Shown here: positions 43,076 through 61,802 of the stretch, one piece after another
Position numbering within the stretch: position 1 is the stretch's first letter
Layout: each line of letters starts with the position of its first letter
DNA from: Serpentinicella alkaliphila
GTDB taxonomy: Bacteria > Bacillota > Clostridia > Peptostreptococcales > Natronincolaceae
Reading direction: 5' to 3'
Length of the DNA: 64,000 bases
NCBI RefSeq assembly: GCF_018141405.1
Contig: NZ_CP058648.1
Coordinates: 449,001-513,000, forward strand
Notes under the pieces: model-generated
Told to the model about the DNA's origin: nothing
What the model saw: the letters and a program-made list of their open reading frames with translations, nothing else
Databases searched by the model: none
Translations under genes and position numbers: made by a program

Positions 43076-43192
43076 CTAGTTACTACAGCCACAACCTCCG
43101 GACTGATGGCAACTACAATCAGTACAGCTACAATTATTCTCTGTTATTTCTTCGTTTATATCTACACATAAATTAATATTTACCAATTTCAT
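43076..43192 (-). CDS. 38-aa cysteine-rich peptide behind a Fur-like box
   Basis: This short gene is preceded by a perfect AAAGGAG ribosome site and starts MKLVNINLCVDINEE. The C-terminal half holds seven Cys in all with the patterns CSCTDCSCH and GGCGC. No family was recognised. The Cys-rich tail looks suited to bind a metal, a cluster or thiol ligand. It is transcribed away from a Fur-like box at 43214-43232, which fits a role in metal or iron response. The composition resembles small metal-binding proteins, but without a maturase gene nearby it does not look like a modified peptide precursor. Translation is inferred from the ribosome site and operator only. Confidence 0.6.
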   Translation of the reverse strand: MKLVNINLCVDINEEITENNCSCTDCSCHQSGGCGCSN

Positions 43193-43213
43193 AGAATTAC
43201 TCCTTTATCTAAT

Positions 43214-43232
43214 GATATTAGTTTTCATTATC
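43214..43232 (-). promoter_or_regulatory. Fur-like box upstream of the Cys-rich peptide
   Basis: On the minus strand GATAATGAAAACTAATATC matches the Fur consensus GATAATGATAATCATTATC at 15 of 19 positions. It is 22 bases before the peptide start. Confidence 0.65.
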
Positions 43233-43329
43233 ATTAATTAAATGGTATCACCCTGTTCCTAAAATGTCAATATGTTATTTTTATTTTCTATAAACTTAGG
43301 GACTTCTCCTTCCTAATACTTAAATGTAA

Positions 43330-43357
43330 AAAAACACTATTCAGTCTTAGTGTTTTT
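43330..43357 (-). terminator. Terminator downstream of the HD-GYP gene
   Basis: AAAAACACTA (43330-43339) and TAGTGTTTTT (43348-43357) pair perfectly and are followed by a T tract on the minus strand. Confidence 0.85.
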
Positions 43358-43399
43358 AGCTAAATATTTTCATATGTTTATATGTAACCTTTTCAACTC

Positions 43400-44554
43400 T
43401 TAATATAATGGATTTTTATATAATAGTTTTAAAAACTCATCTACTAAATGTGGATCAAATTGCGTTCCTTTACATTTTATTAATTCACCTATAGCCTCTT
43501 CCTTTAATAAACCTTTTCTATAAGCTCTACTACTTGTCATTGCATCCCATGCATCCACTATACTAACAATTCTAGCAGTTAGAGGGATTTCCTCTCCTTT
43601 TAACCTATCTGGATAGCCATTTCCATCATATCTTTCATGATGATATTTGATTACATCTACAATGCCTTTATTCAGATCCATAGGTTTTAATATGTTAACA
43701 CCTTTTATTGGATGTTCTTTTATTATCCCATATTCCTCATCAGTTAAAGCAGTATTTTTGTTTAAAATTACATCAGAAATACCTATTTTTCCAACATCGT
43801 GTAGAATTGCCCCATAATGAATTAGTTCAACCATTTCTTCTGTAAAATCAAGAAACTTTGCGAATTCAACAGTTATCATTGCTACTCTAGAGGAGTGATT
43901 TTGAGTATATATATCCTTTGCATCTATAGCTGCTACTAAACTGCTAATTGTTTTTAAATATAATTCCTTTTTTTTACGCTCTATATTCTTTCGAATATTA
44001 TCTAGTAACAATGCTGCCTGATGAGAGAATATTTTTAGATTTATTTGATCTCTGACAGAATAGCTACTAGAATGGTTATCATTATCCTCATGTCTATGCA
44101 TTACAACTGCGTATCCTATAGGGTCGGTTTCAACTACCAATGGTAGAAAAATAAATGATTCTAGTTTTTCATCTAACTTATAAAACCTGTGAAAATACTC
44201 ATTTTTTTTATTCACTTCAACAATTCTATTTAATTGCTGCTTAGATAATATGTTATTTAGTTTACTGAAAGCCTTAACTAGTTCCTCAGATATTTGCCCG
44301 TTAATTTCCACAGCTTTTACTTTATAACTACTAGTTTCTATCATAAATAGACAACCAGCCTCACTATTAGTAATTTCCATAGCAAGCTGTAATGTGCTTT
44401 TAATAGTAGTGTTCAAATCTCCATCTCGCATTAATAAATTTGTCATATTTACAAGAAAGGACTGCTCACTTAGTTTATCTTCTAATTCTTTAATTTTATT
44501 ATTTAATCTATGTACTTCTTTATTTTGCATATGATAATTTAGAATAATAATCAC
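43400..44554 (-). CDS. GAF-domain HD-GYP cyclic-di-GMP phosphodiesterase
   Basis: This 384-aa soluble protein has a coiled-coil start, a GAF sensor domain (about 35-195) and an HD-GYP domain (about 205-375). The HD-GYP motifs are GAILHDVGKIGI (the HD pair), then HPIKGVNIL, then HHERYDGNGYPDRLKG and DAWDAMTSSRAYR. It should degrade cyclic-di-GMP to linear or GMP products. The start at 44554 is GTG. The GGAGTGAT site actually lies over it, and an ATT codon three to four positions downstream or the Met at codon 9 are alternatives. It faces the diguanylate cyclase at 41807. Confidence 0.92.
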   Translation of the reverse strand: MIIILNYHMQNKEVHRLNNKIKELEDKLSEQSFLVNMTNLLMRDGDLNTTIKSTLQLAMEITNSEAGCLFMIETSSYKVKAVEINGQISEELVKAFSKLNNILSKQQLNRIVEVNKKNEYFHRFYKLDEKLESFIFLPLVVETDPIGYAVVMHRHEDNDNHSSSYSVRDQINLKIFSHQAALLLDNIRKNIERKKKELYLKTISSLVAAIDAKDIYTQNHSSRVAMITVEFAKFLDFTEEMVELIHYGAILHDVGKIGISDVILNKNTALTDEEYGIIKEHPIKGVNILKPMDLNKGIVDVIKYHHERYDGNGYPDRLKGEEIPLTARIVSIVDAWDAMTSSRAYRKGLLKEEAIGELIKCKGTQFDPHLVDEFLKLLYKNPLY

Positions 44555-44661
44555 TCCAAGCTTACTTATGTTTTAATGAGAATATTTATTATTGTATATT
44601 ACATTTTAGTTATAGAGCTGTCAATATTATATAGCAAATTTTGTTAATGTTATAATTCAAG

Positions 44662-45360
44662 TTACACTAATAATAGTCGATATTTATTCATTGTATTCAC
44701 ATCATCCCTATCATTATGAGGAATGTCTATAGTAAATTGTTTTTGTATCTTTAGTGGTATACCAGATAACACATGTATGTGATTTGCCATATACAAAACC
44801 TCATCAATGTCATGGGTTATATAAATAACTACATTTTTTTTCTCGTACCAATAGTCTATAATATAATCTATTAATACTTTCTTAATATCAAAGTGTAAAC
44901 CCTTAAAAGGCTCATCCATTATCAAAATATCACCATCATATGCGAATGCTCTAGCGATTGAAACCCGTTGCCTCATTCCACCACTTAATTCATTGGGATA
45001 ACATTTTTTAAAATCAATTAAATCCACAAGGGATAAATACTTATCCACTATTTCATCTATTTTTCTCTTTTCTATATTCTCTAACACAAACTTAATATTT
45101 TCTTCTATAGTAGCCCAAGGTAATAATCTGTCTTCTTGAAAAATATATGAAATCCTTTTATCCTTAAACCCAATAATATTACCTTTTTCATATGAGCAAA
45201 GCCCAACTAGGGTATTTATTAATGTTGTTTTTCCACAACCTGAGGGACCAAATAGACAATGGATTCCGTCAGATGAAAAATCTATATTAAAATTAGAAAT
45301 AACTTGAAGGTTCCCATAACTCTTATGCAGATTCTTTACTTGTAGCTTCACTATAATCAT
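44662..45360 (-). CDS. ABC importer ATPase, NitT/TauT-type (importer 1)
   Basis: This 232-aa nucleotide-binding subunit shows Walker A GPSGCGKTT (about 38-46), Q-loop YIFQEDRLLPW, signature LSGGMRQRVSIARA, Walker B ILIMDEPFKGL and H-loop THDIDE. Its sequence is closest to the SsuB/TauB class. It is the last gene of the importer-1 operon and its first 38 bases overlap the permease gene. A paralogue is at 55624-56340. Substrate preference is set by the binding protein and is not known. Confidence 0.93.
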   Translation of the reverse strand: MIIVKLQVKNLHKSYGNLQVISNFNIDFSSDGIHCLFGPSGCGKTTLINTLVGLCSYEKGNIIGFKDKRISYIFQEDRLLPWATIEENIKFVLENIEKRKIDEIVDKYLSLVDLIDFKKCYPNELSGGMRQRVSIARAFAYDGDILIMDEPFKGLHFDIKKVLIDYIIDYWYEKKNVVIYITHDIDEVLYMANHIHVLSGIPLKIQKQFTIDIPHNDRDDVNTMNKYRLLLV

Positions 45361-46147
45361 CCCTTTTATAAGAATTATTAACCGTACAAAAGCCGTTAGA
45401 AGTGGACTTTTTGATTAGTTTATTTAACATAATTTCAAATACAACACTTAGTATTATTACTACGGATGTCCAGGCAAATAATTCATTAGTGTCTAAATAA
45501 ACCTTAGCACTATGGACGTAACTACCTATTCCATTTCTGGGGAGACTTAGGACCTCTGCTGCTACACTTGCCTTCCACCCTAACCCCACTGCCGTTAAAC
45601 AGGCAGCAGATACATATGGAATGATTGATGGAAGATAGATCTTTCTTATTACAGTTAATCTTTTAATACCGTACATCTTAGCCATCTCTAAAAGTTTTAT
45701 ATCTACATTCCTTATTCCCGTAACTACATTAGTCCAAATTATTGGAAAACACAACAGGAAACATATAAATATAGGTACATTTGAGGAGCTAAGCCATATT
45801 ACAGCAAGGATAATAAAGGATATAACTGGAGTTGATTTTATAACAATAATAAGTGGATTTATTATGTCATGCACATGTTCATTCATAGCAGAGATTATTC
45901 CAATAGTAATTCCTAAAAGAATTGACCAAGCGAGTCCACTTAATACTCTATATATGGAGAAAGTAATAGATCTCCAAAAGTAAGGCTGCAAAACTAATTG
46001 TCTCAAGCTTAAAAATACGTTAAATGGAGAAGGGACATAAATGTCCCTTCCAATAATCACATGAGTTATCTGCCAAATTAGAACCCAAAATATAAAAATG
46101 CATATATTTTTAATTGATTTCTTATTTTTTGTAGTAATACCCTTCAT
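45323..46147 (-). CDS. ABC importer permease, NitT/TauT-type (importer 1)
   Basis: This 274-aa membrane protein has six predicted helices and the permease EAA loop EMAKMYGIKRLTVIRKIYLPS (about 160-180, near the end of the fourth helix), plus the family block VGLGWKASVAAEVLSLPRNG. The best start is the ATG at 46147 inside the GATGAAGG sequence that encodes the end of the binding protein, giving a 26-base overlap. The longer frame starting at 46186 lacks a ribosome site. The same overlap occurs in importer 2 (54585-54610), which supports this start and a common duplication origin. The paralogue lies at 53852-54610. Confidence 0.92.
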   Translation of the reverse strand: MKGITTKNKKSIKNICIFIFWVLIWQITHVIIGRDIYVPSPFNVFLSLRQLVLQPYFWRSITFSIYRVLSGLAWSILLGITIGIISAMNEHVHDIINPLIIVIKSTPVISFIILAVIWLSSSNVPIFICFLLCFPIIWTNVVTGIRNVDIKLLEMAKMYGIKRLTVIRKIYLPSIIPYVSAACLTAVGLGWKASVAAEVLSLPRNGIGSYVHSAKVYLDTNELFAWTSVVIILSVVFEIMLNKLIKKSTSNGFCTVNNSYKRDDYSEATSKESA

Positions 46148-47144
46148 CTGGTAATTTACCCCCAATTGATTTTTGATCAAAATCAAATAGTACCTGATAA
46201 AATTCCTCTAAATATGCTTTAGCATCCTGTGCATCTATGTATACAATATTGCTTAATGGAATTGCTTTTTTAGCTATGGCTGCCTTAGGTAGTATTTCAA
46301 ATTTTTCAATTAATTCCGAAGCTTCTTCATTATTCTCATTTACAAAACTAACTGACTGTTTATATTCATCCAAAAATATATTAAGAGCCTCTTTATTATT
46401 CTGAGCAAATTCCTTTTGAACAATTATTGACCCCATGGGTAATTGTCTATCTCCTGTTAACTTATTCCATTCAGCCGTAATATCTAAAGCTATTCTTAGG
46501 TTTGGATTTTGCATTAATGCTGTAGTCACATGGGGCTGAGGAAGTAGTCCCATTTTAACATCCCCTGCTACCAATGCTGCTGCTAACTCTGAATGCTGTA
46601 ATTTATAATCAATTATAACATCTTTATCAGGTGTTAGGTTATTCCCGTTTAAAATATAATTAAATACAAAATCCGGCGTTGCACCTTTTCCGCTAGAATA
46701 TATAGACTGACCTCTTAAATCTTCTACAGAATTAATGCTAGCCCCATTTTCTACTACATAAAGTACCCCAAGAGTATTAACAGCTGCTAATTGAATAGCT
46801 CCTTGAGTCCTGTTATATAATACTAAAGCTAAATTAGTTGGAACTGCGGCTACATCTACCTCACCACTTAAAATTTTACCTACTAAATCATCTGGGCTTC
46901 CCAGTAAAGTAAACTCATAATCTAAATCAGTTTCTCCAAGCTCGTTTTTTTCCATTAATTCTGCCATACCCATCCCTGTAGGACCTTTAAGAGTTGTAAC
47001 TTTTATTTTTACTTTCTCTATGTTCTCATTACCTGTTGTTTGTTGACCAATTTCATTTTTGGGGCTACAGCCCACTACAGTACCTAACGTCAAAACTATA
47101 ACAATCATTAAAATCAACACTTTTTTAAACCCATATTTTGTCAA
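46122..47144 (-). CDS. Lipoprotein substrate-binding subunit, SsuA/NMT1-like (importer 1)
   Basis: This 340-aa lipoprotein has a signal peptide with lipobox LGTVVGC (Cys26). The mature part fits the type II binding-protein fold with ILSGEVDVAAVPTNLALVLY, LRGQSIYSSGKGATPD and GGKLPDEGYYYKK at the end. It shares all of these blocks with the paralogue at 54585-55586. The family includes sulfonate, taurine, thiamine-precursor and nitrate binders, so the ligand is open. A Fur-like box (47164-47182) lies 20 bases upstream of the start, implying iron-regulated expression. Confidence 0.92.
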   Translation of the reverse strand: MTKYGFKKVLILMIVIVLTLGTVVGCSPKNEIGQQTTGNENIEKVKIKVTTLKGPTGMGMAELMEKNELGETDLDYEFTLLGSPDDLVGKILSGEVDVAAVPTNLALVLYNRTQGAIQLAAVNTLGVLYVVENGASINSVEDLRGQSIYSSGKGATPDFVFNYILNGNNLTPDKDVIIDYKLQHSELAAALVAGDVKMGLLPQPHVTTALMQNPNLRIALDITAEWNKLTGDRQLPMGSIIVQKEFAQNNKEALNIFLDEYKQSVSFVNENNEEASELIEKFEILPKAAIAKKAIPLSNIVYIDAQDAKAYLEEFYQVLFDFDQKSIGGKLPDEGYYYKK

Positions 47145-47163
47145 TTTAAAACCTCCCGATAGT

Positions 47164-47182
47164 ATTAGTGATAATCATTTTC
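47164..47182 (-). promoter_or_regulatory. Fur-like box upstream of importer 1
   Basis: The 19-mer contains the central TGATAATCATT exactly and matches the Fur consensus at about 15 of 19 positions. It lies in the short gap between the binding-protein gene and the Crp-type regulator gene. Confidence 0.6.
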
Positions 47183-47208
47183 ATATTAGCACCAACATTG
47201 TTTCTCTG

Positions 47209-47844
47209 TCAATCATATAATATAATTTTATTTGCCTCAAGTATTAAATATTTATCTTCTTCCAATTTTTTTAATATTCTATATAAAGAAGGTCTGCTAA
47301 TACCCAAGTAGTCCGCTAACTCACTTTTACTGAGGTTTAAGGTCACTTGTTTTTTATTATTTTGCTGTACTTTTAATTGTTTTATATAATTAATAATTCT
47401 CTCTTCAATATTATCTTGCGTAAAACACTCTACCCTTTGATTTAAAAAGTGTATTCTCCCACTTATATATCCTAAATAATTTCTTTGAATGTTCTCATCT
47501 AATTGAAATAATTTTAATAAACCTTCTTCATTAATAAACATAACAACCGATTCACTCTTTACATATAAAGACGTTACATTACTAACACTTTCCTGAAAAA
47601 GATTGGCTAAGCCAAAAACATCCCCACCTTTTATTTTATTCATAATAATTTTTTTACCTGTTATAAGGTTTTTCTGTATTTCAATTTTACCACTAAGAAC
47701 TATACCAATTTCTCTATCACAGTTTTCTATATAAGAACCCTTTGCATATATTACAGTTCTATAATTAATCGCTTTAAAAATATTAGTCAGTTTATCAATA
47801 TGTAGATGCTTAAAAAGAAAGGATTTTTGTAATTGATTGCTCAT
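47209..47844 (-). CDS. Crp/Fnr-family transcription regulator (regulator 1)
   Basis: This 211-aa protein has an N-terminal cNMP-binding-type beta barrel (about 20-120, with GIVLSGKIEIQK and GGDVFGLANLF) and a C-terminal winged helix whose recognition helix is LADYLGISRPSLYRILKKL. There are no N-terminal Cys residues of the Fnr type, so it is not an Fe-S sensor of that class. It sits between importer 1 (downstream, same strand) and the triad operon (divergent), and a second Crp-type gene (60538) is placed in the same way by the activase operon. The effector is unknown. Confidence 0.9.
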   Translation of the reverse strand: MSNQLQKSFLFKHLHIDKLTNIFKAINYRTVIYAKGSYIENCDREIGIVLSGKIEIQKNLITGKKIIMNKIKGGDVFGLANLFQESVSNVTSLYVKSESVVMFINEEGLLKLFQLDENIQRNYLGYISGRIHFLNQRVECFTQDNIEERIINYIKQLKVQQNNKKQVTLNLSKSELADYLGISRPSLYRILKKLEEDKYLILEANKIILYD

Positions 47845-47944
47845 TTCTATCCCCCTCGTCTAGAAAAATATAAATATATTTATTTTATAAATGTCTTATA
47901 TAATACATTTTTTATAATTTGATTGTATTATAATAACAACAGAT

Positions 47945-47971
47945 AAACAATAATGAATTTCATTATTGTTT
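47945..47971. promoter_or_regulatory. Perfect 13-bp-arm palindrome in front of the cytosolic triad operon
   Basis: The arms AAACAATAATGAA (47945-47957) and TTCATTATTGTTT (47959-47971) flank a single T. The core 47949-47967 matches the Fur consensus at 14 of 19 positions. It could bind a Fur-family protein or the neighbouring Crp-type regulator. A second palindrome (TATAATACA and TGTATTATA, 47899-47907 and 47924-47932) lies upstream, between the divergent genes. Confidence 0.6.
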
Positions 47972-47988
47972 CAAAGGAGGAGTATACT

Positions 47989-48702
47989 ATGGTAACAATT
48001 ATTATTGGTGGAGCCCCTGCTGTTGGAAAAACAAGTGTAGTAAAACATATTGTACAGTTTTTACAGCTTCAGAATGATTATCCTGCAGTATGTAAGATCG
48101 ATTGTATTGAAAGTAATGATGAACAAAACTATAAATTATTAAATATTCCTGTCATTCAAGGATTAAGTCAAAATATATGCCCAGATCATTTTTTAGCTAC
48201 TAATATTATTGATATTTTTGAGTGGGGTATAAAGAAAAAATCAAGTCATTTGTTTATTGAAACAGCAGGCCTGTGTAATCGTTGTGCTCCATTCATAAAT
48301 AGGGCCTTAAATATATGCGTTATAGATTGTATGGGCAGTATAAAAGGACCAGAAAAGCTTGGTCCCCTTGTTACAACAGCAGATATTCTAGTTCTAACTA
48401 AATCTGATTTAGTCTCTCAAGCTGAACGTGAAGTATTATCATATCATCTATCTAGCTTAAATTCCAAAGCAATAATCCTGGAAGTTAACGGTCTTTCTGG
48501 CTTTGGAGTACAAAGACTAGTTCAATTAATCGCGAAAAAAGGTCAATCCACTCATACTTTAGAGGAAGACCAGCTTAGATACTCTATGCCTGCAGCCAAC
48601 TGCTCTTATTGTGTTGGGGAAATACGTATTGGCCGTAGTTATCAACAAGGTATAGTTAATAAAATGGCTTTTAATGAGGAAGTTGAGGAAAATATATGCT
48701 AA
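47989..48702 (+). CDS. G3E-like P-loop GTPase with Cys motifs (metallochaperone-like)
   Basis: This 237-aa protein starts MVTIIIGGAPAVGKTSVV behind an AAAGGAGG site. A longer frame from 47953 would begin inside the palindrome and is unlikely. The P-loop is GGAPAVGKTS, the G4-like motif is LTKSD, and a central Cys motif ETAGLCNRCAPF occurs near residue 88. A second CxxC is near the C-terminus (ANCSYCVGEIRIG). This pattern of an NTPase with Cys pairs resembles HypB, UreG and other G3E metal-delivery GTPases, though it is not clearly any of them. It starts a three-gene operon with a soluble ABC ATPase and a binding-protein-like protein. Confidence 0.6.
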   Translation: MVTIIIGGAPAVGKTSVVKHIVQFLQLQNDYPAVCKIDCIESNDEQNYKLLNIPVIQGLSQNICPDHFLATNIIDIFEWGIKKKSSHLFIETAGLCNRCAPFINRALNICVIDCMGSIKGPEKLGPLVTTADILVLTKSDLVSQAEREVLSYHLSSLNSKAIILEVNGLSGFGVQRLVQLIAKKGQSTHTLEEDQLRYSMPAANCSYCVGEIRIGRSYQQGIVNKMAFNEEVEENIC

Positions 48703-49472
48703 ATAAACTTGAAATAATAGCTGGCTATGACAAAAAAGGTATTAAAGAATCTGTTGAGTCTGTCGTATTTGAAAGAGGCCAAATTTATACCATTGTTGGT
48801 AAAACTGGTTCAGGTAAAACATTGTTAATGGAAGATATTGAATGCCTTAACGATGGTGAAGGAATAACTAAGAGGACAATTCTTATTGATGGTGAAAAGC
48901 CTGGTGATTCGTTCTATGTAGGATACAGAAGTAGATTAATAGCACACCTTTCTCAAAATATGAACTATATTCTAGATATGCCAGTACTAGAATTTCTAAA
49001 TTTACGAAATCAACTTCATACTTCTAAAGAATTTAATGTAAACCCTATTAAAACCCTTGAAACAGCTAATTTATTAAGTGGAGAAGAGATACAACCCCAG
49101 CAGCTCCTCACTAAATTAAGTGGTGGACAATCAAGGGCATTGATGATAACTGATGTGGCACTAAACAGTTCAGCTCCAGTTATACTAATAGATGAGGTTG
49201 AAAATGCTGGTATAGATAGAATTAAGGCAATGTCTTTATTAATAAAGCATGAGAAGATTGTTTTAGTAGCTACCCATGACCCACTATTAGCTCTATACGG
49301 TAATAAAAGAATTGTACTAAGCAACGGTGGTATGAGTAAAATAATTGAACGCTCATCTGAAGAAGAAGCCATATTGGAACAACTAATTGCAGTAAATGAT
49401 AAAATGGAAAAAATGCGTCTACAAATTCGTAATGGAGAATCATTAAAAGGAGTGAATGACCTTGTCTTATAA
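48696..49472 (+). CDS. Soluble ABC-type ATPase without a permease partner
   Basis: This 258-aa ATPase has Walker A VGKTGSGKT (about 35-43), signature KLSGGQSRALMI, Walker B VILIDEVENAG and H-loop ATHDP. No membrane segment is visible and no permease gene lies beside it. It overlaps the GTPase gene by 7 bases and the next gene by 17. The tight overlap indicates a stable complex with both. ABC ATPases without membrane partners act in processes such as SufC-type Fe-S assembly or methyl-coenzyme M reductase activation. The role here is unknown. Confidence 0.75.
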   Translation: MLNKLEIIAGYDKKGIKESVESVVFERGQIYTIVGKTGSGKTLLMEDIECLNDGEGITKRTILIDGEKPGDSFYVGYRSRLIAHLSQNMNYILDMPVLEFLNLRNQLHTSKEFNVNPIKTLETANLLSGEEIQPQQLLTKLSGGQSRALMITDVALNSSAPVILIDEVENAGIDRIKAMSLLIKHEKIVLVATHDPLLALYGNKRIVLSNGGMSKIIERSSEEEAILEQLIAVNDKMEKMRLQIRNGESLKGVNDLVL

Positions 49473-50412
49473 AGTTTATTGGAATAATATATGTTTATTA
49501 AGCAATATGGAAGAGGCTTTTATTAACACCCAACAAAAAATACAGAAGCATTTTCCGTTCACCTTTGAGTACTATGGTTTAGGAAAACCTTCATCAATGA
49601 CTGTAAAAATTAAAGAGGATATACAAGCCGGAAACATAGGTGGAGATATTATAGTTTCAACGGATTTAGATATATATCAAGATGTAACGATTGCTAAATA
49701 TTTACAGAATGAATTTAAAAAAAGTTCTTCCCTTTTACCTATTAATGAGCATCTATTTAACACTACTATACCTCATCCTGAACAATACTTTCACCCCTTT
49801 GTAGTTATTCCTCTAGTTATGGTCGTTAACAGTAATTTAGTCAAAGAATCTGAAATGCCAAAAGCGTTTGAAGACTTAATAAGCCCTAACTTTAAATACA
49901 GATATGCATTTGGTGGAATACATAACTCTGCAGGTAGATCCTTATTGAAATCACTCTGGTATATGTATGGAAAAAAAACTGTAGAGAAATTTCTATCTGG
50001 GGCTACTATTACTACTATGCCAGCTCAGGCATTTCAACAGGTTATGACTGGTCAAGTAGAAGTCGCTATAGTGCCAACAATTTTTGCCCTTAGAAAGGGG
50101 GTTAATGGAATAAAAGCAATCTGGCCAAAAGAAGGTGCAATTCCTATACCCTCCTATGTTGCATGCAAAAACAATGTCTCTGAAGAGGATTTTAGTTTAT
50201 TTGTTGATAATATACTAGGTAAAGAATTTCAATTACAGTTAAAAAATGCTGGTGATATAATTCCATCTCACCCAGAACTATCTATATCATCCTTTGCAAT
50301 GGAAAATGATTGTAAGTTGCTTTATCCAGAATGGGAATTTTTTAAAACATTTGATCATGAAGAGTTCTATAATCAATGCAATAGCTTCTATCATCTTTTA
50401 AAAGCACAATAG
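49456..50412 (+). CDS. Substrate-binding-protein-like protein lacking a signal peptide
   Basis: This 318-aa protein resembles type II periplasmic binding proteins: GGDIIVSTDLDIYQDV, HPFVVIPLVMVVNSNLVKES, FGGIHNSAGRSLLKSLWYM and VTGQ-like VMTGQVEVAIVPTIFAL. There is no signal peptide, lipobox or membrane helix at the N-terminus, so it should stay in the cytosol, which is unusual for the fold. The start is an ATG after AAAAGGAGTGA, or a TTG two codons later with better spacing. As the last gene of the triad it probably binds a small molecule or metal complex handed on by the GTPase and ATPase. Confidence 0.7.
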   Translation: MTLSYKVYWNNICLLSNMEEAFINTQQKIQKHFPFTFEYYGLGKPSSMTVKIKEDIQAGNIGGDIIVSTDLDIYQDVTIAKYLQNEFKKSSSLLPINEHLFNTTIPHPEQYFHPFVVIPLVMVVNSNLVKESEMPKAFEDLISPNFKYRYAFGGIHNSAGRSLLKSLWYMYGKKTVEKFLSGATITTMPAQAFQQVMTGQVEVAIVPTIFALRKGVNGIKAIWPKEGAIPIPSYVACKNNVSEEDFSLFVDNILGKEFQLQLKNAGDIIPSHPELSISSFAMENDCKLLYPEWEFFKTFDHEEFYNQCNSFYHLLKAQ

Positions 50413-50440
50413 TTATTGTTCTTTATATATAACGAATCTT

Positions 50441-50475
50441 ATAAAACTCCTCTTCTGTACTTAGAGGAGTTTTAT
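50441..50475. terminator. Bidirectional terminator between the triad operon and the chemoreceptor gene
   Basis: ATAAAACTCCTCT (50441-50453) and AGAGGAGTTTTAT (50463-50475) are perfect reverse complements, with T and A tracts on either side. Confidence 0.92.
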
Positions 50476-50499
50476 ATCTTTTCATAAATATATCGATAA

Positions 50500-53661: not shown

Positions 53662-53680
53662 AATAATGATAATCATTATC
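53662..53680 (-). promoter_or_regulatory. Fur box of feoB
   Basis: AATAATGATAATCATTATC matches the Fur consensus at 18 of 19 positions and lies 32 bases upstream of the feoB start. Confidence 0.9.
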
Positions 53681-53754
53681 GTTAACAGAGTATAATATAC
53701 CACTTATACCACATATAGTCAACAAATAATTCAGAGGGCATTTTAAAACAAAAA

Positions 53755-53796: not shown

Positions 53797-53851
53797 AATT
53801 TATTGTGTATTACAGTTTGTTCACTATGTTTCTTTAATAAATATTATTTAT

Positions 53852-54610
53852 TCAATCTTTATGTTTTTTTGCTACTTCTATTATTTGTTCTAACATTGCC
53901 GCTAATACAATTGTTATTAGAGACCATGCAAATACTCCAGCAGTATTAAGACTAGCCCTTTCGATTTGAAAATTTGTACCCATAGAGATTCTGGGTTGAC
54001 TTAAAACCTCTGCGGCTATTATTATTTTAAGATTCAATCCCATAGCAGAAGACATTGCACCGTATAAATATGAACTTATAGATGGTATATATAAATCCAT
54101 AAACTTATCTATTATACCAATATGATATATATCCATCATTTCAACAATCTTTATATCAACATTTCTAATCCCTTGTACAACACTCTCATATATAACAGGG
54201 AATATAACTACAAACCCTACTAAAATTGGTGCCTTTTCTGACTGTAGCCAGATAAGTGCAAGTAAAATCATAGCCATTGTCGGCACAGCTTTATTTACTA
54301 AGATAATAGGTCTTAATAGGTAATAAATCGGTCTTGAGAAACCACCCATCATCCCTAAGCTAACCCCTGCCCCTAAGGCAAATACAAATCCTATTAATGC
54401 CCTTTTCAAAGTATTAATTAAGGAGGTAATAAAGTTAGGAGAGCTGATAATCCTAATTAATTCTTTTAAAGTACTTGCTGGAGATGGAATTAATATTTCT
54501 CTATCTACTATATTAGCTGCTATATTCCAAATAATTATTAGTACAATTACTGACAATAGAGTATATAAAGGTTCCTTCGGTTCTTTATTTTTGGAAATAG
54601 AAGCCTTCAT
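53852..54610 (-). CDS. ABC importer permease, NitT/TauT-type (importer 2)
   Basis: This 252-aa permease begins MKASISKNKEPKEP, with five to six membrane helices and the EAA-loop region EMMDIYHIGIIDKFMDLYIPS. It shares the family block VDIKIVEM and the AAEVLSQPRISMG motif. Its ATG overlaps the 3' end of the binding-protein gene by 26 bases, exactly as in importer 1. It is the last gene of a four-gene operon that starts with the giant activase. The paralogue is at 45323. Confidence 0.93.
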   Translation of the reverse strand: MKASISKNKEPKEPLYTLLSVIVLIIIWNIAANIVDREILIPSPASTLKELIRIISSPNFITSLINTLKRALIGFVFALGAGVSLGMMGGFSRPIYYLLRPIILVNKAVPTMAMILLALIWLQSEKAPILVGFVVIFPVIYESVVQGIRNVDIKIVEMMDIYHIGIIDKFMDLYIPSISSYLYGAMSSAMGLNLKIIIAAEVLSQPRISMGTNFQIERASLNTAGVFAWSLITIVLAAMLEQIIEVAKKHKD

Positions 54611-55586
54611 CAGGAAGCTTCCCTCCTATTGTTTCTGGTGCATATTCAAATAGCACGTTTAAATATTTCTCTATAGATTCCTTAGCGCTCTTAATATCTC
54701 TATACTCTATGTTTGATCTTCCTAAGCCATTTACTACAGCTCCTTTTGATAATCCTGTTTCAAGTTCTTCACTGTATTCTCCTGCCTTAGGAGCATTTGA
54801 ATGTAACCATTTAATGCTGTTTTCATATTCCATTAAAAAGTTTTGTACAAACTCTGGATCTTTCTCAATAATCTCGCTTTTAATTATTAATGATGCTTGA
54901 GGATAACTTGAATTGATTTTGTTTAGTTTAGCCCACTCCTCTTGTAAATCAAATAGTATATTAGTACCCTCTTTTTTCATCATTACATTTGAAAGTGCTG
55001 GTTCTGGTATAACGGATATGGCACTTTTCCCTGCTATAAATGTTGAAGCAAGCTCCGCAGCCTCACCCACATAAGTTAAAGTCACATCTTTTTCTGGATC
55101 TAAACCATTACTAGTTAATAGGTATCTTAAAACTACATCCGGAGTAAGACCTCTACCCATAGTATGTATTTCTTTTCCCCTTAAATCATCCCATCCATTA
55201 ATTTCTTCATTTCCAACTAAATAAAGAACACCCCATACACTTGATGCTGCAATTTTATAGTCTACACCTCTATTATATAGAGTTGCGGCTAAATTTGTTG
55301 GTACTACAGCAATATCGATTTCACCTGAAATTATTCTAGAAGCTAATAAATCTGGTGACTTTATAGTTTCATAGTTTATTTCTATATGATCTCCAAAGGA
55401 AGGGTTTTCTTTAAACATTTTAATCATACTTAAATTTGGAGCTCCAGTTGGGGCAGCAACATTTAAACTTAAGTTCTCTAGTTCTTTAACTTCTTCTACC
55501 TTTGGATTGTCAACCTTTGAAGAACATCCAACTAAAAACATTACTGCTAAACCTAAAATTAAAATAAGACTAATCACCTTTTTCAT
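54585..55586 (-). CDS. Lipoprotein substrate-binding subunit, SsuA/NMT1-like (importer 2)
   Basis: This 333-aa lipoprotein starts MKKVISLILILG behind an AGGAG site. A longer frame from 55631 lacks that. The lipobox FLVGC places Cys21 as the lipidated residue. Shared blocks with importer 1 are VVPTNLAATLYNRG, LRGKEIHTMGRGLTPD and the terminal GGKLPDEGFYFQK. The two binding proteins are clear paralogues that have diverged in the middle, so they may bind related but different ligands. It lies between the ATPase and permease genes of the same operon. Confidence 0.92.
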   Translation of the reverse strand: MKKVISLILILGLAVMFLVGCSSKVDNPKVEEVKELENLSLNVAAPTGAPNLSMIKMFKENPSFGDHIEINYETIKSPDLLASRIISGEIDIAVVPTNLAATLYNRGVDYKIAASSVWGVLYLVGNEEINGWDDLRGKEIHTMGRGLTPDVVLRYLLTSNGLDPEKDVTLTYVGEAAELASTFIAGKSAISVIPEPALSNVMMKKEGTNILFDLQEEWAKLNKINSSYPQASLIIKSEIIEKDPEFVQNFLMEYENSIKWLHSNAPKAGEYSEELETGLSKGAVVNGLGRSNIEYRDIKSAKESIEKYLNVLFEYAPETIGGKLPDEGFYFQK

Positions 55587-55623
55587 TATTGTTTTACACT
55601 CCTTATATTTTATATTTTTATTT

Positions 55624-56340
55624 TTAAGCACTTTTATAGGTGCCTTTATCCTGTTGTTTAGAAAGAGTTTTTATTAACTTACTCCTTACTTCAAATAACT
55701 CCCTATCATCTAGGCTCCTTAAATTTTGTGGGGTATTTATTTTTATAACAGTCTCAACAGTACAAGGGTTTTTCGTAAGTACTACAACTCTATTCCCTAA
55801 TAGTAACGCCTCATCAATTTCATGAGTAACAAACACAATCGAATTCTTCCATTTATGCCATATATCAATTAAGCTTTTTACCATATTTATTCTTAAATCA
55901 TAATCCAAAGATTTAAATGGCTCATCCATTAAAAGCATTTGGCATTCATAGTTAAAAGCTCTGGCTATGGAACATCTCTGTCTCATGCCACCACTTAATT
56001 GATTAGGGTATTTGTTTTCAAAATTGCTCAGACCTACAATATCGATTAAGTTTTGGATTTTATTATCCGAAGCAATTTTGTTAACAATTTTAATATTTTC
56101 AAATACAGTTTTCCATGGCAGTAATCTATCCTCCTGAAAAACATATCCGATTTTCTTATGATTATTTTTTATACTACCTTTATCTGGATTAATAATCCCC
56201 GCCATTACATTAAGTAAGGTAGACTTACCACAACCTGAAGGACCTAAAATACAGGTTATTTCATTATCTTTGATTTCCATATTAAAGTTGTGCAGTACAT
56301 TTATTTCATCATAACTTTTATAAATACCATCTAGAAACAT
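55624..56340 (-). CDS. ABC importer ATPase, NitT/TauT-type (importer 2)
   Basis: This 238-aa ATPase has Walker A GPSGCGKST, Q-loop YVFQEDRLLPWKTV, signature LSGGMRQRCSIARA, Walker B LLMDEPFKSLD and H-loop THEIDE. It closely resembles the importer 1 ATPase. It is the second gene of the operon, 35 bases after the activase gene. It should drive uptake of whatever the binding protein at 54585 captures. Confidence 0.93.
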   Translation of the reverse strand: MFLDGIYKSYDEINVLHNFNMEIKDNEITCILGPSGCGKSTLLNVMAGIINPDKGSIKNNHKKIGYVFQEDRLLPWKTVFENIKIVNKIASDNKIQNLIDIVGLSNFENKYPNQLSGGMRQRCSIARAFNYECQMLLMDEPFKSLDYDLRINMVKSLIDIWHKWKNSIVFVTHEIDEALLLGNRVVVLTKNPCTVETVIKINTPQNLRSLDDRELFEVRSKLIKTLSKQQDKGTYKSA

Positions 56341-56375
56341 AGAATCACCCCTTCCTGACTTTGACTATTTAGACT

Positions 56376-59300
56376 TCACTTCATTGCATAGTATATAAAT
56401 GAATCTATTTTTGAGTTATCTATTTCATTTTCATTTCCATCAAAGGTCATATTTAATATCGGTAGCTTTGATAACCTTTTCTGATCTTGAGTAAATATAT
56501 TCAAGATAGTGTTTGTATTTTCATACATCGAAGAAACAGAAATAACTCCGTTTACAAAATCTAAATTACCTAAAGTTTTTGCATATCTATATCTACCATT
56601 TCCTCCAGTATATAAGCCTAATCCCTCATCAGCTCTTCTAACAAGGTCATTCATATCCTTTTCAAATATGTTTATAGGCTCGACTATATTAGATATTACT
56701 TTCATATAATTAGAAAGCGTTGTTAAATTGTTCAGTAGTTCATCCGCTTTTTGAGTCTTGTTATGTGCTAAGTAATCTCTCCATAAAAACCACATATACT
56801 CGCTAAGAGGTGCAAATAAAAGGTTTATACCCTTTTCCTCTAAGGCTTTAAATCTATTGTTATTTAAGAAATCGTTAAAAATAATACTTGCTTCTCCTAT
56901 AACAAATAGCTTACTTGTATGTGCATTACTTTTTAGCTCTTTACTAATTTCCATGGCTATATCCTGCAAACTATCAATAGATAATTTATTATTTTTAATT
57001 AAACAAATAATTTTATTTACGTACTCTTCTCTTCTATTTCTTCGTAAGAGATTTACTAAATCTCCCCCCAGAAGTAATAGAAATATCTGTTCAGACAATT
57101 GCCTATCTTTTATTACATCCTCAATGAAAGGAGCTACTATTTCTGCATTCTGCATATTTCCATTATCTAACTTATCTCGTAATAATCTATTGTATTGTCC
57201 ACCTATTTCCGCGCCCTCACAGGTAGGTATTATAAAACCAATATTCTGGTTTTGCTCATTACTCTCTAGACCTTTGGACAAAATATCCCCTAAAATGCTA
57301 GTAAAGGATAGGTACTCTTTAGTTAATGTATTTTTACGTCCTACATCAAGTGTTTTACCTGAAGTCATAGGAAGTACATGTACATCATAGGCTTTTCCTT
57401 GAAGCGAAGCTGCTAATAGCTCAGAGTAAGGATATAAAAATGGCAAATATAGTATAGTGTTCTTATCTACTTCATCCAAGTTATTTTTTATATAAGTTGG
57501 TTTGTGAGTAACCTTATTTGAGTAATCTTTTAAAGTTAAATCATTAGCCACTTCAACCTTATCGGATTTAATGCTATTTACAAAGGCCTCTACTCTTGTC
57601 AATACTCCTACACTTGAAAAATGCTCATCTACTTCAATATTTAAGTAAGGCTTTCCACTCATTTCTTCCTTAAAATAATGAACTAAGGCAGTATCAGGTC
57701 CACAACCATGATTTGTTATATAAATTGGATATAGATTAGGATGCTGCTTAATTATTTGAGCTCCAGATAAAATATGCTGCCCGAAGGGCCAATACATATT
57801 AGGATGTTCCTTAGATGTATCATGATCATGAGCTGGCAAATTAGATAGTGTTAACACTTTATAACCTAACTTTTCTAGCTTTTCAGGTATACCCATATTC
57901 AATATTGGATCTACTATGCCATAACCCCTAGTCACTATCACAAAGACTTTTTCATCCTTCCCTAAGCTACTAACAACTTCTTCCCCTTGTTTTTCAACCT
58001 TTAATTCAAAGCGTCTTAGGCTTTTCATTCCTTTCGTTAAGGCTGAGCCTGTTCGAATTGGATTCTTACCTAACTGTTTCCCTAACTCCATTAAGGTCTT
58101 CATCAAATATTTCTTGCCAAACTTAAAGGAAAGCTCTGGTGATAATAATTTTATTCCTTTTCTATCAAGGTCCATGGTTATATCTATAAGCTTTGGAACA
58201 CATTGCATATAAACACATCCATAATCTTGTCTAGTTGTTGAAACTGAATGGGACATAGTGTATAAGCTTGGTAAAAAAATGTAATCTACTTTCTTTTCAA
58301 TTAATTCAGCTATATGGCCATTTATAAGTTTAATTGGATAGCAAGTTTCATCCATTGAATACTCTTGACTTAGCTCTACAGTTTTCTCACTACTGTTATC
58401 AGATAATATGACATTAAAACCTAGCTCTTTAAAATAAGTATTAAATAGCGGAAATAGTTTGTGTAGGAAAAGCACTCTTGGTATCCCAACTGTCTTTTTA
58501 GAAGGATCTAACTTACGGTCATATCCTGCTAAATAGAGTCTTTCAATCTCTTCAAATATTTCTGTTCTTTTAGCTTCTTTTACAATTTCATGCTTACGTT
58601 CTTTTTCATATACTACATTTTCATCTAAATTAAAGCCTCTAAATGAAGACTGGCCTTTCATATCTTCCTTTGCTAAAATTGCTGCGCCATATGCTCCTGT
58701 TACGCTAAAAAACTTAGGTATTTCTAATTTTTCGCCTAATATGGCCTTAAAAGCATTTATTACTGCCTGATTGTATGCCACTCCACCTTGGAACAATATT
58801 TTATTTCCAACTACTTTGTTTCCAACTACTTTATTAAGATAATTCTTTGCAATTGAATAAGCTAATCCGGCGGCTATATCTTCTAATTTTGCTTCGTTAC
58901 TCAAACTTGCTGCTATATTTGTTTCTATAAAAACTGTACATCTATCCCCTAAATCTATAGGGCTTTTGGACTTCATTGCTAAATCCCCAAAATCATTTAT
59001 AGGAATATTTAATTTTAATGCCTGCTCTTCTATAAATGATCCAGTCCCTGCTGCACAAATTTTATTCATCTCAAAATCTGAAACAACACCATTCTCTAAT
59101 TTTATAAATTTTGAGTCCTGACCACCGATTTCTATTATCGTATCTACTTCAGGGTCGATAAAATTTGCGGCCTTTGCTTGTGCAGTTATTTCATCTATGA
59201 TTACATCTGCACCTACAAACTTACCTATCATATACCTACCAGAGCCAGTAGTTCCTACCCCTAGTACATTTATTTTTTTTCCAAGATCATTTTGTATTTC

Positions 59301-60383
59301 CTGTAGGCCTTGGGTTACTACCTTTATTGGATTACCCCGGGTTCTTAAATATTTAAAACTAATAACATCATTATTTTCATCCATAAATACAACATTTGTA
59401 CTTGTTGAACCGATATCAATACCTATATATCCACTAACAGCCCCTTCGGAGCCTATTGCTTTACAGTTGTGTTTGTTGCTACTATCATTGCTTCCATACT
59501 GGGATAAAGAGGATAAAATAACTGTATTATCAAAGGATGCTAGTAACCTTTCGTTTTCTAAACTTAGATTAACAAAACTAGTTAGATCAATGGATAGATT
59601 ATCCTTTAGTCCTATAATTGCTGCCCCAAGAGCTGAAATATTGCCACAATCCTTAGGTATTATTACATCCTCATTATTTAGTTTTAATACATCGATTAAA
59701 GCCTTTACAATCGATTCATTATATATAACTCCTCCAGTAAGTAATAGAGGTGTTCGTATTGGATATTTCTTTACAACATTAGCTCTGTAGTTTTTAACAA
59801 GCGCATATGCTAAACCTAATAAAATATCCTTTGAGTCTACCCCCTCTTGCTGATGATGTATAATATCTGTTTTAGCAAATACACTACATCTTCCAGCTAT
59901 ACGGGGTATGAAGGTTGCATTTTGAGTAAGATTTGAGTAACTCTCTAAATTAACTCCTAATCTAGATACCTGTTCCTCTATAAACGAACCTGTACCTGCA
60001 GAACAATTAGAATTAATAGATATTAATATATTTGAATTGTCCGAATCACTTATATTAGTTAGAAACTTTGAGCTTTGACCACCAATCTCTACAATAGAAC
60101 CTATATCACAATTAACTTGTTTACTACCCTCTACCAAAGAAGTAACTTCGTTTATCCATGACAGTCCATATTTTTCTGATATATATTTACTGCCCTGACC
60201 TGTTGCAGCTCCATATCTTATGCTATTTCCGTATTTACTAGTTAATTGTTTTATATTTTTATCTATTTCTTCCTTAACTCTACCTTTATGTAAAACATAG
60301 GTACTATACTGTACTTCCATCTTTTCATCTATTAGTAAGAATTTTATGGAAGAATATCCGATATCAATTCCTAAGCTATGCAA
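56376..60383 (-). CDS. Giant tandem 2-hydroxyacyl-CoA dehydratase activase fused to DUF2229 and HgdB-like domains
   Basis: This 1335-aa cytosolic protein joins two ASKHA ATPase domains of the BadF/HgdC type (about 1-265 and 320-575), a DUF2229 domain (about 632-870) and a further HgdB-like region to about 1335. Both ATPase domains keep the two cluster-ligand cysteines, Cys127 and Cys166 (NCSAGTGSF, GRCSVF) and Cys443 and Cys482 (ICAAGTGSF, DRCTVF). Activases normally dimerise and share one [4Fe-4S] cluster held by four such Cys, so one chain could form its own pseudo-dimer. ATP hydrolysis would drive a very low-potential electron to a partner. It is the first gene of an operon with ABC importer 2 and has a Fur-like box upstream (60428-60446). 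The acceptor is unknown. Confidence 0.9.
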   Translation of the reverse strand: MHSLGIDIGYSSIKFLLIDEKMEVQYSTYVLHKGRVKEEIDKNIKQLTSKYGNSIRYGAATGQGSKYISEKYGLSWINEVTSLVEGSKQVNCDIGSIVEIGGQSSKFLTNISDSDNSNILISINSNCSAGTGSFIEEQVSRLGVNLESYSNLTQNATFIPRIAGRCSVFAKTDIIHHQQEGVDSKDILLGLAYALVKNYRANVVKKYPIRTPLLLTGGVIYNESIVKALIDVLKLNNEDVIIPKDCGNISALGAAIIGLKDNLSIDLTSFVNLSLENERLLASFDNTVILSSLSQYGSNDSSNKHNCKAIGSEGAVSGYIGIDIGSTSTNVVFMDENNDVISFKYLRTRGNPIKVVTQGLQEIQNDLGKKINVLGVGTTGSGRYMIGKFVGADVIIDEITAQAKAANFIDPEVDTIIEIGGQDSKFIKLENGVVSDFEMNKICAAGTGSFIEEQALKLNIPINDFGDLAMKSKSPIDLGDRCTVFIETNIAASLSNEAKLEDIAAGLAYSIAKNYLNKVVGNKVVGNKILFQGGVAYNQAVINAFKAILGEKLEIPKFFSVTGAYGAAILAKEDMKGQSSFRGFNLDENVVYEKERKHEIVKEAKRTEIFEEIERLYLAGYDRKLDPSKKTVGIPRVLFLHKLFPLFNTYFKELGFNVILSDNSSEKTVELSQEYSMDETCYPIKLINGHIAELIEKKVDYIFLPSLYTMSHSVSTTRQDYGCVYMQCVPKLIDITMDLDRKGIKLLSPELSFKFGKKYLMKTLMELGKQLGKNPIRTGSALTKGMKSLRRFELKVEKQGEEVVSSLGKDEKVFVIVTRGYGIVDPILNMGIPEKLEKLGYKVLTLSNLPAHDHDTSKEHPNMYWPFGQHILSGAQIIKQHPNLYPIYITNHGCGPDTALVHYFKEEMSGKPYLNIEVDEHFSSVGVLTRVEAFVNSIKSDKVEVANDLTLKDYSNKVTHKPTYIKNNLDEVDKNTILYLPFLYPYSELLAASLQGKAYDVHVLPMTSGKTLDVGRKNTLTKEYLSFTSILGDILSKGLESNEQNQNIGFIIPTCEGAEIGGQYNRLLRDKLDNGNMQNAEIVAPFIEDVIKDRQLSEQIFLLLLGGDLVNLLRRNRREEYVNKIICLIKNNKLSIDSLQDIAMEISKELKSNAHTSKLFVIGEASIIFNDFLNNNRFKALEEKGINLLFAPLSEYMWFLWRDYLAHNKTQKADELLNNLTTLSNYMKVISNIVEPINIFEKDMNDLVRRADEGLGLYTGGNGRYRYAKTLGNLDFVNGVISVSSMYENTNTILNIFTQDQKRLSKLPILNMTFDGNENEIDNSKIDSFIYYAMK
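58804..58833. repeat. In-frame 15-bp tandem duplication inside the activase gene
   Basis: TTTCCAACTACTTT plus G or A is repeated side by side (58804-58818 and 58819-58833). It adds the five residues VVGNK in the second ATPase domain (NKVVGNKVVGNK). It is a recent in-frame expansion. Confidence 0.9.
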
Positions 60384-60427
60384 TTCAATACCTCCATTTT
60401 TAGTTACATTGATAACAGTATTTTTGT

Positions 60428-60446
60428 GACTATGATTATCATTTTC
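60428..60446 (-). promoter_or_regulatory. Fur-like box upstream of the activase operon
   Basis: On the minus strand GAAAATGATAATCATAGTC matches the Fur consensus at 16 of 19 positions. It is 45 bases before the activase start. Confidence 0.7.
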
Positions 60447-60488
60447 AATATGCTATAATAAATTATACTATTAACTATCAATTAAAAA

Positions 60489-60504
60489 TGTATCTCACGA
60501 TACA
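60489..60504. promoter_or_regulatory. TGTATC-N4-GATACA palindrome, possible operator of the Crp-type regulator
   Basis: TGTATC (60489-60494) and GATACA (60499-60504) are exact reverse complements with spacer TCAC. A TATAAT box at 60512-60517 follows, so the site would lie near the -35 of regulator 2. It resembles the symmetric TGT-type half-sites of Crp-family operators. Autoregulation is plausible but not shown. Confidence 0.5.
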
Positions 60505-60537
60505 CTTTTTATATAATTTTTAAATGGAGAGGTATAT

Positions 60538-61218
60538 ATGAATGAAAATATAAATGTACTTACTAACTGTATATTATTTAACCACCTATCATTTGAAGAG
60601 CTAAAATCTTTTTTGTCTAATATTAGCTATACTGTTAAATCATATAAAAAAAATGAAATGGTTTTTTCTCCTAACAGGTCCTCCGATACTTTAGGAATAA
60701 TTTTAACTGGAAGCGTTGATGTTCAAAAAATATTCGCTTCAGGAAAAGCCGTTACTGTAAGTAGAAGGTATCAACAGGATCTAATTGCAGAGGCGTCTAT
60801 ATTTGCAAACATAGACTGCTATCCTTCTACAGTTGTTTCAACTGAAAATAGTAATATTTTATTAATAGAAAAAAGTAATCTTCTAAAATTATTTACTATG
60901 GATGAACGCATTATGACTAAATTTTTAGAATCTGTTTCAAATAGAATCCTGGCTCTCAATAGTACAATTGAAATACTTTCTTTAAATTCTGTTCCTGCAA
61001 AAATATCTTATTTTTTATTATTAGAACAGAAAAAGCAAAATAGTAATACGATTCAATTAAAATTCACAAAGAAAACTTTAGCGGAGCATATTAATGTTTC
61101 AAGACCTACCTTATCAAGAGAGCTTAAAAATATGCAACTAAAAGGTATGCTCTCTTTTACTAAAAAGACTATTGAGATTCATTCTTCCGAAAGACTTGAA
61201 GATATTTGTGCAGAATAA
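60538..61218 (+). CDS. Crp/Fnr-family transcription regulator (regulator 2)
   Basis: This 226-aa protein has the effector-binding barrel (LGIILTGSVDVQKIF, about 58-72) and a winged helix with recognition helix LAEHINVSRPTLSRELKNM. It has a single Cys close to the N-terminus but no Fnr-type cluster. GGAGAGG precedes the ATG. It is divergent from the activase operon, with a Fur-like box and the TGTATC palindrome in the 154-base gap. It is distantly similar to regulator 1 (47209), which suggests two parallel regulator-importer modules. Confidence 0.9.
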   Translation: MNENINVLTNCILFNHLSFEELKSFLSNISYTVKSYKKNEMVFSPNRSSDTLGIILTGSVDVQKIFASGKAVTVSRRYQQDLIAEASIFANIDCYPSTVVSTENSNILLIEKSNLLKLFTMDERIMTKFLESVSNRILALNSTIEILSLNSVPAKISYFLLLEQKKQNSNTIQLKFTKKTLAEHINVSRPTLSRELKNMQLKGMLSFTKKTIEIHSSERLEDICAE

Positions 61219-61233
61219 GTAATTAGTCTAAAT

Positions 61234-61272
61234 AATAAAGCTAAAAGTGAAGTGATTTACTTTTAGCTTTAT
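61234..61272. terminator. Bidirectional terminator between regulator 2 and the flavodoxin
   Basis: ATAAAGCTAAAAGT (61234-61247) and ACTTTTAGCTTTAT (61259-61272) are perfect reverse complements, serving both converging genes. Confidence 0.9.
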
Positions 61273-61282
61273 TTACATATTA

Positions 61283-61708
61283 CTATTTAACTAACTTTGC
61301 CCCTAATTCTTTACATTGTTTTAAACCTTCGTCATCAGGAGTTAAATGTAAAATTAACCCTTCAGCAACTAAGCTAGCACCGTAATCTTCCATTCTTTTT
61401 TCCCAATCCTTCATCCATTCACCATTACCCCAATCGTAAGACCCAAATAGTGCAACAGATTTTCCTGTAATAACACTTTGTAATGACTCTACGAAAGGTT
61501 CCATTTCTACCTCTTCTAACACCTCAGCCCCCATAGAAGGACAACCTAGTGCAACATAATCTGCCTTATTTACATCCTCTAAAGTAGCTTGATCGACACT
61601 TAAAAGTTTAACTTCATTACCGCCCTCTTGTGCCCCTTCAACAATTGATTTAGCCATCATTTCTGTATTTCCTGTTCCACTCCAATAAATAACCACAACT
61701 TTTTTCAT
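61283..61708 (-). CDS. Flavodoxin (iron-limitation electron carrier)
   Basis: This 141-aa flavodoxin starts MKKVVVIYWSGTGNTE, with the FMN phosphate loop SGTGNTE, then LGCPSMGAE and FGSYDWGNGEWM around the flavin ring. The longer frame to 61804 is a read-through into the promoter. A GGAGGT site seven bases before the ATG at 61708 is decisive. A strong Fur box (61784-61802) lies upstream, typical of flavodoxins that replace ferredoxin when iron is short. Flavodoxin hydroquinone is a known electron donor to 2-hydroxyacyl-CoA dehydratase activases, which links it to the giant activase 1.3 kb away. Confidence 0.95.
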   Translation of the reverse strand: MKKVVVIYWSGTGNTEMMAKSIVEGAQEGGNEVKLLSVDQATLEDVNKADYVALGCPSMGAEVLEEVEMEPFVESLQSVITGKSVALFGSYDWGNGEWMKDWEKRMEDYGASLVAEGLILHLTPDDEGLKQCKELGAKLVK

Positions 61709-61783
61709 TTTATGTACCTCCATTAATTTATTGTTATTGCAACTACAAATTCTGTTTTCATTGATATATGACAACTCACTTTT

Positions 61784-61802
61784 GATAATAGTTATCATTA
61801 TC
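61784..61802 (-). promoter_or_regulatory. Fur box of the flavodoxin gene
   Basis: On the minus strand GATAATGATAACTATTATC matches the Fur consensus at 17 of 19 positions. It is followed by a further TATCAT half-site at 61815-61820. Confidence 0.88.

Follow-up and report, generated by a model that had tools for sequence, protein, structure and literature searches.

Fur acts as a repressor together with iron, and flavodoxin can supply electrons to HgdC-type activases. In clostridia, Fur typically controls the genes for the ferrous iron transporter FeoB and for flavodoxin (PMC6311696, PMC5050335). Low iron induces the ssuA2B2C2-CD2992 operon of Clostridioides difficile, as does mutation of fur; a Fur box was not found before ssu in that species, and a benzoyl-CoA reductase is listed as Fur-controlled in Clostridium acetobutylicum (PMC6311696). 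G3E GTPases serve metal centres (PMC2770081). Here we describe a 19 kb region (positions 43,076 to 61,802) of a 64 kb stretch of the Serpentinicella alkaliphila genome; the whole stretch is referred to as the window. The region encodes two SsuABC-type importers, two CRP-family regulators, a 1335-aa activase and a three-gene unit, here called the triad, that consists of a UreG/HypB-like GTPase, a soluble ABC ATPase and a substrate-binding protein (SBP), together with feoB and a flavodoxin gene.

We conclude that these genes form one regulon made of two linked yet separable modules. In module 1, the cytosolic triad would be joined by an SsuABC-type importer and one CRP-family regulator. Module 2 would consist of the activase, which is a single-chain ATP-driven reductase, with the other CRP-family regulator, the other SsuABC-type importer and, in many cases, a cupin. 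The explanation that we put first, tentatively and with a little less than even confidence, is an iron-starvation regulon whose two modules are separately mobile and whose importer, metal-handling triad and ATP-driven reductase work together. At the level of sequence, the promoter sites, the gene order, the conservation of both and the domain make-up of the proteins are the established part of this explanation. The initial annotation had named a FeoB, two SsuABC-type importers, a CobW-family GTPase, a soluble ABC ATPase, an SBP-like protein, a 1335-aa activase, two CRP-family regulators and a flavodoxin, and all of these identities held. The genes are as follows.

43076..43192, minus strand: 38-aa Cys-rich peptide MKLVNINLCVDINEEITENNCSCTDCSCHQSGGCGCSN, with homologues in 3/40 related genomes
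44662..45360, minus strand: importer 1 ATPase, SsuB/TauB/SaoA-like by domain matches
45323..46138, minus strand: importer 1 permease, SsuC/TauC/SaoP-like by domain matches
46122..47144, minus strand: importer 1 substrate-binding lipoprotein, SsuA/NMT1 superfamily; nearest solved structure 3hn0
47209..47844, minus strand: CRP1, CRP-family regulator divergent from the triad, position conserved
47989..48702, plus strand: triad gene 1, UreG/HypB-like G3E GTPase (CobW family) with seven invariant Cys and a CPDH motif; the listed open reading frame starts at 47953
48696..49472, plus strand: triad gene 2, soluble ABC ATPase without a membrane partner, by domain matches
49456..50412, plus strand: triad gene 3, SBP_bac_6 protein with the ferric-binding-protein fold, signal peptide not visible, by domain matches and fold
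51857..53629, minus strand: FeoB, ferrous iron transporter, TIGR00437 above cut-off
53852..54610, minus strand: importer 2 permease, by domain matches
54585..55631, minus strand: importer 2 substrate-binding lipoprotein; nearest solved structure 3hn0
55624..56340, minus strand: importer 2 ATPase, by Blast label and gene order
56376..60383, minus strand: 1335-aa activase with two HgdC-type ATPases (residues ~1-300 and 320-571), a DUF2229/HgdB-like domain (~601-940) and a further C-terminal region
60538..61218, plus strand: CRP2, CRP-family regulator divergent from the activase, position conserved
61283..61708, minus strand: short-chain flavodoxin, TIGR01753 and PRK05568 above cut-off; the listed open reading frame extends to 61804
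62111..62449, minus strand: small cupin, whose homologues in relatives lie within the activase-importer operon

Each component resembles a described system and departs from it. The region, like C. difficile ssuA2B2C2-CD2992, which is low-iron-induced, has SsuABC-type importers. The C. difficile Fur-linked ssu locus mentioned in the initial annotation exists and responds to low iron (PMC6311696), but the counterpart of CD2989-2992 in S. alkaliphila is neither importer 1 nor importer 2; it is a third SsuABC-type importer operon at ~180 kb. This operon (genome ~175-181 kb, L286) encodes a FeFe-hydrogenase-like 225-aa protein, a permease, an ATPase and an SBP, and it is preceded by a 16/19 Fur-like site, whereas none was found at ssu in C. 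difficile (PMC6311696). The activase shares with DCCP/DCCP-R (6eno, 7yyl) and with HgdBC/BcrABCD the HgdC-type activases with cluster Cys and the HgdB-fold acceptor with three invariant Cys. It differs from them as one 1335-aa chain with two activases, with upstream Fur sites and with an importer in the operon in place of a catabolic pathway. The benzoyl-CoA reductase listed for C. acetobutylicum might be such a giant activase.

The triad GTPase has the P-loop G3E domain and the CPxH-type motif of UreG, HypB and COG0523 proteins (PMC2770081), and its match to PF02492 (40.4 bits) exceeds the gathering score of 20.7. It differs from those proteins in its seven invariant cysteines (51, 76, 108, 111, 122, 217 and 220), in having no urease or hydrogenase partner, in always being accompanied by a soluble ABC ATPase, and in scoring below the equivalog cut-offs of HypB (TIGR00073, 32.9 versus 121.2 bits) and UreG (TIGR00101, 19.7 versus 204.2 bits). 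In an alignment to UreG and HypB, the GCPH motif of UreG coincides with the invariant CPDH motif. The triad SBP, modelled at a predicted local distance difference test (pLDDT) score of 91.6, has the fold of FbpA, SfuA and FutA (Z 23-25), with SfuA, KfuA, YfuA and FbpA the closest matches (Z 24-25), but it has no visible signal peptide and its Tyr-Tyr ligands are replaced; iron binding in the manner of FbpA is unsupported. Sugar-phosphate binders also match with Z >22, and the fold is therefore uninformative on the ligand. A search of a literature collection with few subscription journals gave no publication that treats the triad or a giant activase under Fur control.

Two forms of triad can be told apart. 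In form A the SBP gene lies downstream, a CRP1 gene is divergent and an SsuABC-type importer is often present; the window carries this form, and so do three related genomes (G080, G029 and G048), Fusibacter sp. 3D3, 3/7 Clostridioides genomes, Clostridium cadaveris, Erysipelotrichaceae, Coriobacteria and spirochaetes. The sister form B has a DUF1858-SBP gene upstream, together with the GTPase, a longer ABC ATPase, a HypA-like 80-aa protein starting MHE, and a hybrid-cluster protein (Hcp), which suggests that this form provides Hcp with a metal or cluster. An example of form B lies at L058:6438-11402, similar ones occur in L056, L057, L061, L063, L113, L114, L124 and L137, and Fur sites are absent from them.

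The first line of evidence for a common regulon is the set of Fur-like sites, for which the window was scanned with the consensus GATAATGATAATCATTATC and each position scored as matches out of 19. Sites had been claimed before six units, and the rescan found one at the start of each, with 15-18 matches.

43214..43232: 15/19, upstream of the Cys-rich peptide; kept before homologues
47164..47182: 15/19, upstream of importer 1; poorly kept in relatives (3/23)
47949..47967: 15/19, upstream of the triad; kept in 9/12 CRP1/triad loci
53662..53680: 18/19, upstream of feoB
60428..60446: 16/19, upstream of the activase operon; kept in 17/22 non-redundant relatives
61784..61802: 17/19, upstream of the flavodoxin

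Two start corrections bear on these sites. Homologues and a ribosome-binding site place the GTPase start at ~47989, so that the box at 47949 immediately precedes the coding sequence instead of falling inside it; in the listed flavodoxin open reading frame the domain starts only at residue 33, which gives a start at ~61708. Nine positions in the window reach at least 15/19, two of them overlapping at feoB. Among 300 palindromes permuted at constant composition, the mean is 1.4 such positions and none reached nine, while the reversed consensus gives no such position in the window; the count is thus far above chance. A single Fur-like site is not proof, since a 16/19 site also lies at 44068-44086 within the coding gene of an HD-GYP protein, where it is either a chance match or an internal site, and another, of 15/19, falls at 28297, beyond the region studied. 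Across the genome, which encodes two Fur-family proteins, 19 sites with no more than three mismatches compare with 13 for the reversed control. Because this excess is small, the argument is built on clustering and conservation and not on single sites. Several of the 13 distinct places with genome-wide sites sit in the studied 19 kb; elsewhere, good Fur-like sites precede a siderophore-type importer (L005), a DUF2325 gene (L003) and the third SsuABC-type importer (L006).

Conservation was scored in the region from -250 to +20 of first genes, where a site was any position of at least 15/19. Such a site occurs before 31/435 control first genes (7%), before 18/23 activases (17/22 once a repeated genome is removed), and in 9/12 CRP1/triad loci; before the first genes of form B triads the count is 0/23. 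This conservation of the sites in other families supports genuine control by Fur at the activase operon and at the triad.

The second line of evidence is an element that emerged from reading the spacers, with TGTATC-N4-GATACA upstream of the activase and TGTCTY-N4-RAKACA upstream of the triad.

47892..47907: palindrome TGTCTTATATAATACA, exact match, probable CRP1 operator; kept in relatives
60489..60504: palindrome TGTATCTCACGATACA, exact match, probable CRP2 operator; conserved

The joint pattern TGTMTY-N4-RAKACA matches the 3.26 Mb genome exactly at three places, of which two lie in the CRP1/triad and CRP2/activase spacers; the third, between secA and prfB, looks like a chance occurrence. 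Among relatives, with some genomes counted twice, the palindrome precedes 19/25 activases, 15/36 CRP1 genes and 13/38 form A GTPases; it precedes 2/1062 control genes. Outside the order to which S. alkaliphila belongs it is kept at the activase in 3/4 loci. Since it is adjacent to the divergent CRP genes, the palindrome is probably bound by both CRP-type regulators as their operator.

The third line of evidence is gene order, surveyed in 148 genomes sampled from the order. The GTPase was present in 42 of these genomes and adjoined the ABC ATPase in every fetched locus. The activase was found at clear similarity in 22, with an SsuABC-type importer beside it in 20/22 loci where this was visible, often with a cupin between, and with a divergent CRP gene in 20/22 loci. 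Two orders are conserved: a CRP gene divergent from the activase, which is followed by the optional cupin and importer 2, and an importer next to a CRP gene that is divergent from the triad. The latter extends to Clostridioides, Clostridium, Erysipelotrichaceae, Coriobacteria and spirochaetes. In a quick version of an SBP tree, the SBPs beside the activase form at least two separate clades, so the association of importer and activase arose more than once, and such repeated recruitment argues for a functional need. The activase occurs in 8/13 genomes with a form A triad and in 14/135 others (p ~5e-5, with kinship not accounted for). Triad and activase adjoin each other in the window and in two further loci (L038 and L040), and probably also in G098, where contigs break at this place (L037, L243). 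In two genomes (G080 and G002; L038 and L252) the activase gene is split in two frames, which may represent a broken gene, a sequencing error or a true split.

The activase match to the HgdC-type family TIGR00241 (292 bits) lies well above the cut-off of 125.4, both activase domains are complete, and their cluster Cys (127/166 and 443/482) are kept in 21/21 sequences. The DUF2229 match (PF09989) is far over its own cut-off, whereas the match of the acceptor region to PF06050 falls below the gathering score (19.1 versus 28.4 bits). Cys 681, 723 and 894 of the acceptor region are likewise kept in 21/21 and would bind a cluster. A profile of the C-terminal part found no PDB match by sequence, although the fold search gave matches: in the model of this part (pLDDT 84.8) the first half matches the HgdB, BzdO and DCCP folds with Z ~15 (3o3n, 8s02, 6eno), while that search left the last 360 residues without a clear match. 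The activase is therefore two HgdC-type activases fused to an acceptor of the HgdB or double-cubane type.

In the proposed mechanism, low iron would release Fur from the promoters of both modules, and the CRP-type proteins bound at their common palindrome would add a further signal, which probably reflects the imported compound or an effect of it. The importers may carry in a small organic ligand that either bears metal or spares iron. The triad may act like a metallochaperone that loads, unloads or hands on the metal of this ligand, and the activase, supplied by the Fur-controlled flavodoxin, would generate low-potential electrons with which ligand or metal is reduced. If this is true, strict anaerobes meet iron starvation by a reductive intake route, composed of importers, the soluble chaperone-like triad and an ATP-driven reductase, as well as by FeoB and flavodoxin, and functions could be given to several widespread and misleadingly named families (sulfonate importer, CoA activase, HypB-like GTPase). 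The gene modules would then point to a hitherto undescribed response to iron shortage, and the explanation yields a concrete prediction for the Clostridioides locus with the same gene order.

Several observations weigh against this explanation. Importer 1 mostly stands alone in relatives, and a Fur-like site precedes it in only 3/23 of them; the sites are thus conserved at the activase operon and at CRP1/triad but not at importer 1. Outside the order, the four activase loci show only weak Fur sites (14/19). The triad SBP lacks the paired tyrosine ligands of ferric-binding proteins: in an alignment, its PTIFAL stands against NTYYIG of Campylobacter jejuni FbpA. SsuA-type proteins usually bind small organic anions, and metal in the imported ligand is therefore not required. 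Finally, 14/22 activase genomes have no form A triad and 5/13 triad genomes have no activase. The proposed joint action of importers, triad and activase thus keeps its conserved importer-triad and importer-activase neighbours, which are not random, and the co-occurrence of triad and activase, but as one obligatory system it is not supported, since triad and activase each occur alone.

The main rival, a possible though doubtful account, is an iron-sparing metabolism in which the importers take up an organic acid, an aromatic or an organosulfur compound, which the activase, once ferredoxin-dependent pathways fail, would reduce to dispose of electrons or to obtain sulfur; the triad would then be a co-regulated but separate metal-insertion system. 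It draws on the frequent separation of activase and triad, and on the reduction of CoA esters or small molecules by HgdB/BcrC-type acceptors; the acceptor fold matches not only DCCP but also hydroxyacyl-CoA dehydratase and benzoyl-CoA reductase. C. difficile at low iron switches fermentation routes and induces its ssu operon (PMC6311696). The importers point the same way, as they belong to the SsuABC/Tau/nitrate group and are closest to SsuA/Tau/nitrate/THI5-type proteins; with 70.6 and 48.7 bits against the TIGR01728 cut-off of 163.5, their SBPs are by score relatives of SsuA and not members of its subfamily. An activase operon serving catabolism is, on the other hand, difficult to reconcile with its content of importer, cupin and CRP genes only, among which no recurrent CoA ligase, CoA transferase or catabolic gene was recognised, and the same importer type also pairs with the triad, which has the features of a metal chaperone.

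It is unlikely that the region is an ordinary Fur regulon, in which unrelated iron-response genes lie together by chance and have Fur sites in common but no joint pathway. The presence of feoB and flavodoxin, both usual members of the clostridial Fur regulon (PMC6311696, PMC5050335), the separability of the modules and the mostly solitary importer 1 would all fit, but chance co-location leaves unexplained why importer-activase and importer-triad neighbourhoods are kept across families and why the activase and triad promoters have a second, rare operator in common. A very improbable reading, in which the importers are relatives of the Sec-assisted organometallic (SAO) importer and handle an organometal, is disfavoured, and membership in the SAO system is rejected, for although SaoA, SaoP and SaoX are among the best NCBIfam matches, these fall far under the curated equivalog cut-offs (149/360, 105/295 and 19/300 bits, respectively) and SaoL, SaoC, SaoB and SaoT were not reported in NCBIfam scans of the region's genes.

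The iron-starvation regulon of two cooperating modules can be carried a step further, to a proposal that we consider speculative and rather improbable. The triad would be an undescribed soluble machine in which an SBP, an ABC ATPase without membrane part and a Cys-rich UreG/HypB-like GTPase take the imported metal complex in the cytosol. The complex would then be stripped or reduced by ATP-driven super-reductases, here the fused activase and elsewhere nitrogenase-like proteins, and the form B triads, with their Hcp and HypA-like protein, would represent the same machine adapted to another metal centre. Nitrogenase-like nifHDK genes and a Fec-type importer adjoin the form A triad in three lineages (L039:1-8000, L320 and L126).

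The remaining observations concern smaller elements. Each homologue of the 38-aa Cys-rich peptide in the three related genomes has an upstream Fur-like site of 16-17/19; in one of these genomes (G127) a flavodoxin gene directly follows, and in another (G098) the peptide gene lies beside CRP2 and the activase. Another small Cys-rich protein, MKINKSIGCTIDECKYHAKNES..., encoded at 63239-63400 of the window, recurs at L357:339-560 near the peptide-flavodoxin operon of G127. The sequence TGTATCATCAAGTACA and its reverse complement are repeated many times in the genome, for example at 32907-32922 of the window, and likely belong to a repeated element.

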